From NCBI GenBank assembly GCA_003232915.1, contig QIKE01000147.1, positions 1 through 42,554 on the forward strand: a DNA stretch of 42,554 bases. The letters are read 5' to 3'. The position numbers and the translations under genes were made by a program. Under the pieces are notes generated by a model, which saw only the letters and a program-made list of their open reading frames with translations, ran no database searches and was not told where the DNA came from. Within the stretch, counting starts at the first letter, position 1, and the number at the start of each line of letters is the position of its first letter. Source of the DNA: Bacteroidota bacterium (GTDB lineage Bacteria; Bacteroidota; Bacteroidia; Bacteroidales; F082). Positions 4,136-40,583 of the stretch are shown here, piece by piece.

Positions 4136-4310
4136 AGTATTGATTATTCTATCCTCTTTTGAAAAATGTTTCTACTACCATTTTAGTGATGAACTTAATA
4201 GTTACAGTGATGAAAGTACAAAATTTATTTGAAACGGTAAGTCTTTTTGCAGGAATTTCTTGGCTAAATTTTAATTTGAGGTACTCATTATATTATTTAC
4301 CTTTTGTAAT

Positions 4311-4372
4311 ATCCGCTGAAGGCGAATAAACAATTATAGCCATAAGCTAAGCCTATGGAATAATAATCCGTT
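4311..4372. repeat. REP-like degenerate palindromes upstream of the IS200-type remnant
   Basis: Two imperfect hairpins sit in tandem. The first is TCCGCTGAAGGCGAA, with complementary CCGC/GGCG-like arms. The second is CCATAAGCTAAGCCTATGG, with 8-nt arms and one mismatch. The arrangement resembles the palindromes at 39850-39934 and lies about 40 bp before a Y1-type transposase remnant, so it is probably the decayed left end of that element. The 175 bp between the nitroreductase stop and this point show no gene. Confidence 0.5.
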
Positions 4373-4412
4373 GCAAATTAGAACTATGAACGGGATTCAA
4401 TAAAACTTGATT

Positions 4413-4619
4413 ATGTCAACCTATACTCAAATACATTATCAAATTGTCTTTTCAACAAAAAACGGCCAAAAAGTACTTATTAACGAACATCACGAAAAGT
4501 TATTCGGAAACATATGGGAAATTTTAAAAACCAAAGGATTGTTATGCGCATTTTTTGTAATTAATAATTGTTATTTATCTGATGACCCGATTATTAACAT
4601 GTTTTTTTCAAATTCTTAA
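4413..4619 (+). pseudogene. IS200/IS605-type Y1 transposase, truncated remnant
   Basis: The first 45 or so residues (MSTYTQIHYQIVFSTKNGQK, then LFGNIWEILKTKG) match the N-terminus of HUH/Y1 transposases of the IS200/REP-associated group. The frame then degenerates (LLCAFFVINNCYLSDDPII) before the metal-binding HUH motif and the catalytic tyrosine, so the protein would be inactive. The track starts two codons earlier at a TTG; the ATG at 4413 fits the family start. Degenerate palindromes lie just upstream. From about 4620 to 4748 I see nothing. Confidence 0.7.
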
Positions 4620-39597: not shown

Positions 39598-39791
39598 TCA
39601 AGAACTTTTGTTCCGTCATTGGCACCTGCATCAATTTCGAGAAAGTTGTTTATTAATGAAGAATTATCCATAATGTGGATATTGACTATACATCACACGG
39701 GATAAATCAGGACATTTTCATTTTTAAAAAATCGGAACTTCATCTGTTTATAATTTTGTATCTTACTGATCTATTTAGTTTTATGTTTTGT

Positions 39792-39934
39792 CATAATTTT
39801 CGGCTCCGCAATCGAAAATTATGCCAAAACGGTGCTGACATTTTTTGTACCACGGGTTTAAACCCGTGGAATGGCAAAGCCATTATTCCACAGGTTAAAC
39901 ACCAGTGGCTATTATTATTACGCTCCTTCGGAGC
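39792..39934. repeat. Cluster of REP-like palindromes
   Basis: Five palindromes follow each other: CATAATTTTCG/CGAAAATTATG (39792-39802 with 39813-39823); the perfect 20-bp CCACGGGTTTAAACCCGTGG (39850-39869); AATGGC-AAA-GCCATT (39870-39884); the imperfect CCACAGGTTAAACACCAGTGG (39888-39908); and GCTCC-TTC-GGAGC (39922-39934). Such stacks occur at the ends of IS200-like/REP-associated elements, and a REP-type transposase remnant lies at 42386-42554. The 74-aa and 88-aa ORFs across it are artefacts. Confidence 0.75.
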
Positions 39935-40583
39935 TCTATAATCATTCTTCTGTGCGTCGAATTTATTTATCATGGGGGGATTCATGTCAATAAATTCTTT
40001 AAATCGGCCTTGCATGTTTGATTAAGTGATTAGAAGAATCCGGTTACGGTTTTATGAAATTTGTCAGGGATTTCATAATATTTTGTATACAGTTTTTTCT
40101 TCTCTGAAAATGTATAAATTTATTCCGTTTTAAGTATAGCAAGGCAAAAATTACCCGGCATTTTGTGATATGTACAACAATAGTAACCAAGTATCAAAAC
40201 AGGGATGATGAAGAATATCAACAACATCTTCTTTAATACTCTAACAGAAAAAAGATTTTATTATGAAAAAAATTTGAATGTTCATTAAATCCACCTCATC
40301 GTATCATGTTGATTCTTAGTATTGTAAGTCGGATGAATAATTACGAAAATTTTAACCCAACAAACACTCTACCCTAATAAATTATTAATAATTAAGTGTT
40401 TATAACTTGTTCCTGTAAAATTGAAAGAGTTGGCCTATTTATTTGTACTTTTGGCGGCTGAATAGTTACGCCCATTTAAATCTATCGGTTCATCAGTAAG
40501 GTGTCTATGATATGATATAAAAAAAACCTGACATATCATCGGAATGTTCAACCCCTTTGTTTAAAAAGAATTGTTTCAAATCA
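39935..40583. other. Intergenic region with solo MITE-end copies and a hairpin
   Basis: No gene. CGGCTGAATAGTTACG at 40455-40470 is identical to the terminal repeat of the element at 17197-17397. CGGATGAATAATTACG at 40330-40345 is a two-mismatch copy in the same orientation. ATGATATG/CATATCAT (40507-40514 with 40532-40539) forms an 8-bp stem. Confidence 0.6.

Follow-up and report, generated by a model that had tools for sequence, protein, structure and literature searches.

Background

BOX elements of Streptococcus pneumoniae have the organisation boxA-boxBn-boxC and, to our knowledge, neither a TTCAT target nor a position at start codons is part of their description. They cluster and nest in one another (PMC10969869). 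REP and REPIN sequences, moved by RAYT transposases (TnpA-REP; PMC6006769, PMC3733652), are short palindromes found between genes in high copy number. Non-autonomous derivatives of IS200/IS605 (PATEs; PMC3119063, PMC7290912) have internal hairpins but no terminal inverted repeats, and the BrickBuilt MITE of Porphyromonas gingivalis (PMC4596501) is a Bacteroidales element with a tandem repeat between a leader and a tail.

We analysed a hairpin stack near the right end of a Bacteroidales contig of 42,554 nucleotides (the whole stretch, hereafter the window). The source genome is a MAG of 2.53 Mb in 162 contigs, 87% complete. The stack is the interior of two nested mobile elements, which had escaped the first-pass annotation: a palindromic module and an outer MITE (Table 1). 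In its organisation the module resembles BOX elements, with fixed end modules around variable tandem core units, stable hairpins, many intergenic copies nested in one another and no transposase of its own; BOX elements belong to another phylum and the likeness is one of organisation, not of sequence comparison. It shares with REP and REPIN sequences their short, palindromic, intergenic and high-copy nature but lacks GTAG and a linkage to Y1 genes, and it has defined ends and a fixed insertion target. With PATEs it shares the internal hairpins, the missing terminal inverted repeats and a fixed short target, with insertion immediately on its 3' side; it differs in that no autonomous IS with its ends was found, its right end repeats the target and its interior is exchanged between species. 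BrickBuilt has a 23-bp repeat and IS5-type inverted repeats, different from those described here, which rules out membership of the same family; moreover, the tandem repeat at our locus is part of a separate element, which occurs outside the MITE as well. The module is most likely a REP/BOX-like, non-autonomous element, and its start-codon target is unusual.

Table 1. Features of the nested elements, in positions of the window
Feature	Position	Strand	Remarks
Composite MITE carrying the module	39687..40142	+	~455 bp; imperfect TIRs of ~33 bp, TA flanks; seven copies aligned
Left TIR of the MITE, TATACATCACACGGGATAAATCAGGACATTTTCA	39687..39720	+	end motif 49 times in the genome
Left TTCAT target of the module	39739..39743	+	
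Palindromic module (inner element)	39744..39985	+	~240 bp; ends from non-MITE copies and module-free MITEs
Conserved left end, CTGTTTATAATTTTGTATC	39744..39762	+	54 genome copies with no more than 3 mismatches (1 for the reversed control)
Hairpin 1	39785..39830	+	18-nt arms, 94% complementary
Perfect 20-bp palindrome, CCACGGGTTTAAACCCGTGG	39850..39869	+	with 39870-39887, one unit of the 37-bp array that is expanded in other copies
Hairpin AATGGC-AAA-GCCATT	39870..39884	+	
Imperfect palindrome, CCACAGGTTAAACACCAGTGG	39888..39908	+	
Hairpin, GCTCCTTCGGAGC	39922..39934	+	in many other copies a T run follows, as in a terminator
Right-end TTCAT of the module	39981..39985	+	
Right TIR of the MITE	40105..40142	-	

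Ends, interior and copy number of the palindromic module

The stack forms the core of the module, which lies in the MITE directly 3' of TTCAT. Copies outside the MITE define conserved ends: TTTCAT followed by NTGTTTATAATTTTGTAA at the left, and AATCATGGATGTTTCAT at the right. All copy counts rest on sequence searches of the genome. Allowing up to 3 mismatches, the left end was found 54 times in the source genome, 74 times in genome G001 and 80 times in genome G002, against 0 to 2 times for the reversed control. The right end had 42 copies, versus 0 for the control. The module has about 50 copies in the source genome and about 70-80 in two sister genomes; the palindromes are not confined to this site. 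With up to 3 mismatches at least one left end was present in 30 of 60 relatives; with no more than 1 mismatch, a sample of 395 genomes from across the class gave only 4 that had one. Plasmid and phage records gave no match. Many contigs of G000 (C37, C74, C92, C95, C40 and others) start or stop inside these repeats; assembly breaks there, and the copy numbers are therefore probably lower bounds.

A BLAST search of the hairpin stretch against the genome returned 157 pieces. They ranged from near full-length copies (86-95% identity) to tandem arrays whose period is 37 bp. In the source genome the interior of the module can hold such an array, of about 3 to 9 units (Tandem Repeats Finder gave 7.1 copies at locus L072 and 9.5 at L025). 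Across species the ends were kept and the interiors exchanged. Complete elements could be extracted in 96 cases, with lengths of 74-479 bp. They chain head-to-tail, the right-end TTTCAT of one doubling as the target of the next. The copies are intergenic and numerous, with unrelated flanks, and a TTCAT-like sequence stands directly 5' of nearly all left ends found by similarity rather than by motif; the target thus reads alike on both sides, each element lying 3' of a TTCAT-like site and ending in (T)TTCAT. The distribution of copies over genomes and species suggests that the module moves. No gene-bearing version was seen among the unpaired ends fetched from the source genome or at the other loci inspected.

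Within the left end (39744-39762), TAATTTTG fits the Bacteroidota -7 promoter consensus TAnnTTTG. This candidate promoter would face into the element, away from the adjoining gene.

Structure of the hairpin stack

The first-pass annotation described a stack of five palindromes including a perfect one of 20 bp, and both descriptions hold, with five hairpins within 39785-39934. Both strands also fold far more stably than expected by chance. Folded as single-stranded DNA, the segment 39785-39955 reached -36.1 kcal/mol on the plus strand (shuffle mean -15.2, z -7.6) and -40.2 kcal/mol on the minus strand (shuffle mean -16.1, z -8.2), and none of 200 shuffles equalled the observed fold. Comparison of 37 distinct copies of hairpin 1 revealed some two-sided changes together with a conserved block of mismatches. 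A simple covarying stem therefore accounts for this hairpin only in part, its central mismatches being conserved. No RNA strand preference was detected among the elements (the minus strand was the more stable in 44 of the 96), and Rfam covariance models gave nothing above gathering score over the module.

Position at start codons

The reverse complement of TTTCAT is ATGAAA, a start codon and the codon after it. Since TTCAT and ATGAA are complementary, many copies coincide exactly with a start codon but leave the gene an intact ATGAAA, which the right end of the module recreates. Independent copies lay precisely where an ORF of at least 60 aa begins in 22 of 23 cases in G001, 25 of 40 in the pooled loci and 8 of 23 in the source genome. 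The corresponding backgrounds at ATGAAA sites were 11%, 31% and 16%, giving p values of 1e-20, 3e-5 and 0.02, which are approximate because the background loci were chosen for holding elements and because the left ends of G001 and of the pooled loci were found with a pattern containing TTTCAT. A cruder background was 16-32% and placed the source-genome p value between 0.02 and 0.46. At start codons G001 thus shows a strong excess, the pooled loci a clear one and the source genome a weak one. This excess may arise because the enzyme prefers such sites or because insertions at other places are selected against, two causes that cannot be separated here. Literature searches, of incomplete coverage, brought up no description of a bacterial repeat family that targets start codons.

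Such positions could also be expected if the module were a native regulatory 5' leader, not mobile, whose copies had spread with their genes. The near-constant placement in G001 speaks for this, as does one feature of a second subtype: in 13 of 16 copies, which are mutually related, the base that follows TTTCAT at the left end complements an internal site; this site covers the start codon, and pairing between it and the left end is possible. The pairing would tuck the start codon into a predicted hairpin and is supportive rather than decisive. However, the genes behind the elements are functionally unrelated (pyrH, miaB, argG, lipoproteins and others), which argues against a regulon and for a mobile element. 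Orthologues in sister species can moreover do without the element. In the source genome pyrH has one at its start codon, directly before ATGAAATACC; it is absent in 11 of 12 relatives, and G001 carries there a degenerate element of its own type. By eye, argG has an element in both G011 and G001, which are different species. Finally, 15 of the 23 source-genome copies and the copies in MITEs lie away from start codons, and the elements chain and nest. We therefore regard a native leader as improbable.

Relation to RAYT and Y1 transposases

The first-pass annotation had likened the stack to REP sequences mobilised by RAYT transposases, and true REP or REPIN sequences moved by the RAYTs of these genomes would indeed be palindromic, intergenic and of high copy number. 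The likeness stands as far as the module is repeated, palindromic, intergenic, abundant and, by its distribution, mobile. It ends at the GTAG motif: neither GTAG nor CTAC occurs in 39744-39985 on either strand, and GTGG is present only inside palindrome arms. Y1 and RAYT genes and remnants do occur in these genomes. The RAYT remnant reported near the stack was confirmed on the minus strand, from 42554 to about 42414, where the encoded RNYKFHNAEGTYFISFAVVERLDVFTRNEYEDVIIDSLHYCQKEKGM matches the N-terminus of a RAYT of the genus at 47% identity (47 aa); this N-terminal piece of a Bacteroidetes RAYT runs off the contig end and has no Pfam match. The second remnant, at 4413 within 4310-4600 on the plus strand, is Y1-like (PF01797, E 0.006, below the family cut-off), but the hairpins preceding it, said to be similar to the stack, are not the module, and a whole-genome BLAST search with the module listed no match there. 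A sequence similar to positions 4310-4395 of the window, in front of 4413, recurs at locus L113 (contig C144) and represents a different repeat family.

Mobilisation by a RAYT found no support in either the position or the copy number of Y1 genes. Among 35 Y1 places in 14 genomes, good module ends were absent from the surrounding 1.5 kb. At one Y1 pseudogene of the source genome a degenerate end lies at a distance of about 750 bp, where 0.8 such cases are expected among the 35 places; the linkage does not exceed chance. Over the same 14 genomes the number of module copies was unrelated to the number of Y1 genes (Spearman 0.27, p 0.35), and G001, with 74 left ends, has only two weak or broken Y1 matches. 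No Y1 gene was found inside or beside module ends, nor any autonomous IS200/IS605 with the same ends. The RAYTs of the genus have palindromes of their own, for example GGTTCAAGCGTCCGCTTGG, which differ from those of the module. The palindromes are not unique to this site, as the first-pass proposal anticipated; the association with Y1 genes that it also expected was not seen. The RAYT reading of the stack is only partly supported, and that these are true REP or REPIN sequences appears unlikely, a little more so than a native leader.

The genus RAYT genes at loci L127, L128, L137 and L146 have such palindromes on their flanks (GGTTCAAGCGTCCGCTTGG and others like it), which are candidate true REPs.

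The outer MITE and its nesting

At least 7 composite copies align over 39687-40142, and their flanks beyond these limits are unrelated. TA stands at the left side in 7 of 7 copies and at the right side in 6 of 7. The element was classed as a MITE from its TIRs, the flanking TA and the missing transposase gene, although the TA may instead belong to the TIR; the TA and the inverted repeats suggest that it is IS630/mariner-like. At least 5 MITEs of ~190 bp have no palindromic module. At the junction these read TTCAATG, TTCCATG or TTCAGTG, as against the expected TTCATG, and no exact empty site was seen. Because module-free copies exist, the module entered the MITE first and the composite multiplied afterwards. 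The filled copies have their junctions in common, which favours a single entry.

No parent IS with the TIRs of the MITE was found; MITEs with similar ends and no transposase are present in genome G047. There, loci L332, L337, L338 and L340 hold a second MITE set of the order, with similar ends (TTATACTAAAAACGGGATAAATT ... GTATAA) and again no transposase. At locus L116 (contig C153) a MITE end lies beside a gene that by eye is transposase-like, perhaps of the IS66 family.

That only the MITE is mobile and the module its passive passenger is highly improbable: at least 7 source-genome copies do lie inside the MITE, but many others are without it, and G001 and G002, with their 74 and 80 left ends, have no match to the MITE end motif.

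Proposed mechanism and significance

We conclude that the palindromes probably represent a family of short, non-coding, non-autonomous mobile elements of a Bacteroidales family, which take TTCAT as target, are moved in trans and have one member nested in a TA-flanked MITE. The module itself is most likely a REP/BOX-like element that an enzyme supplied in trans inserts at TTCAT. Such an enzyme would recognise the module ends and the folded strands. It may be an IS200/IS605-type Y1 HUH transposase, since the module resembles those elements in having a fixed target but no terminal inverted repeats (PMC6006769, PMC7290912); none was identified among the Y1 genes and loci examined. The MITE would be moved separately, by a TA-targeting (IS630/mariner-like) transposase.

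A bolder proposal, which we put forward as speculative and doubtful, is that of a transposition system targeting the start codon itself (ATGAA). It would insert between promoter and coding sequence, recreate the start codon and become a structured, exchangeable 5' leader, the family then being one of mobile translation-control leaders.

Repeats that land on start codons without destroying them show a neat way of inserting without harm, and they can readily supply genes with new 5' leaders. With this family it can be tested whether target choice or selection brings REP/BOX-like repeats to gene starts, and which enzyme mobilises repeats beside which there is no RAYT.
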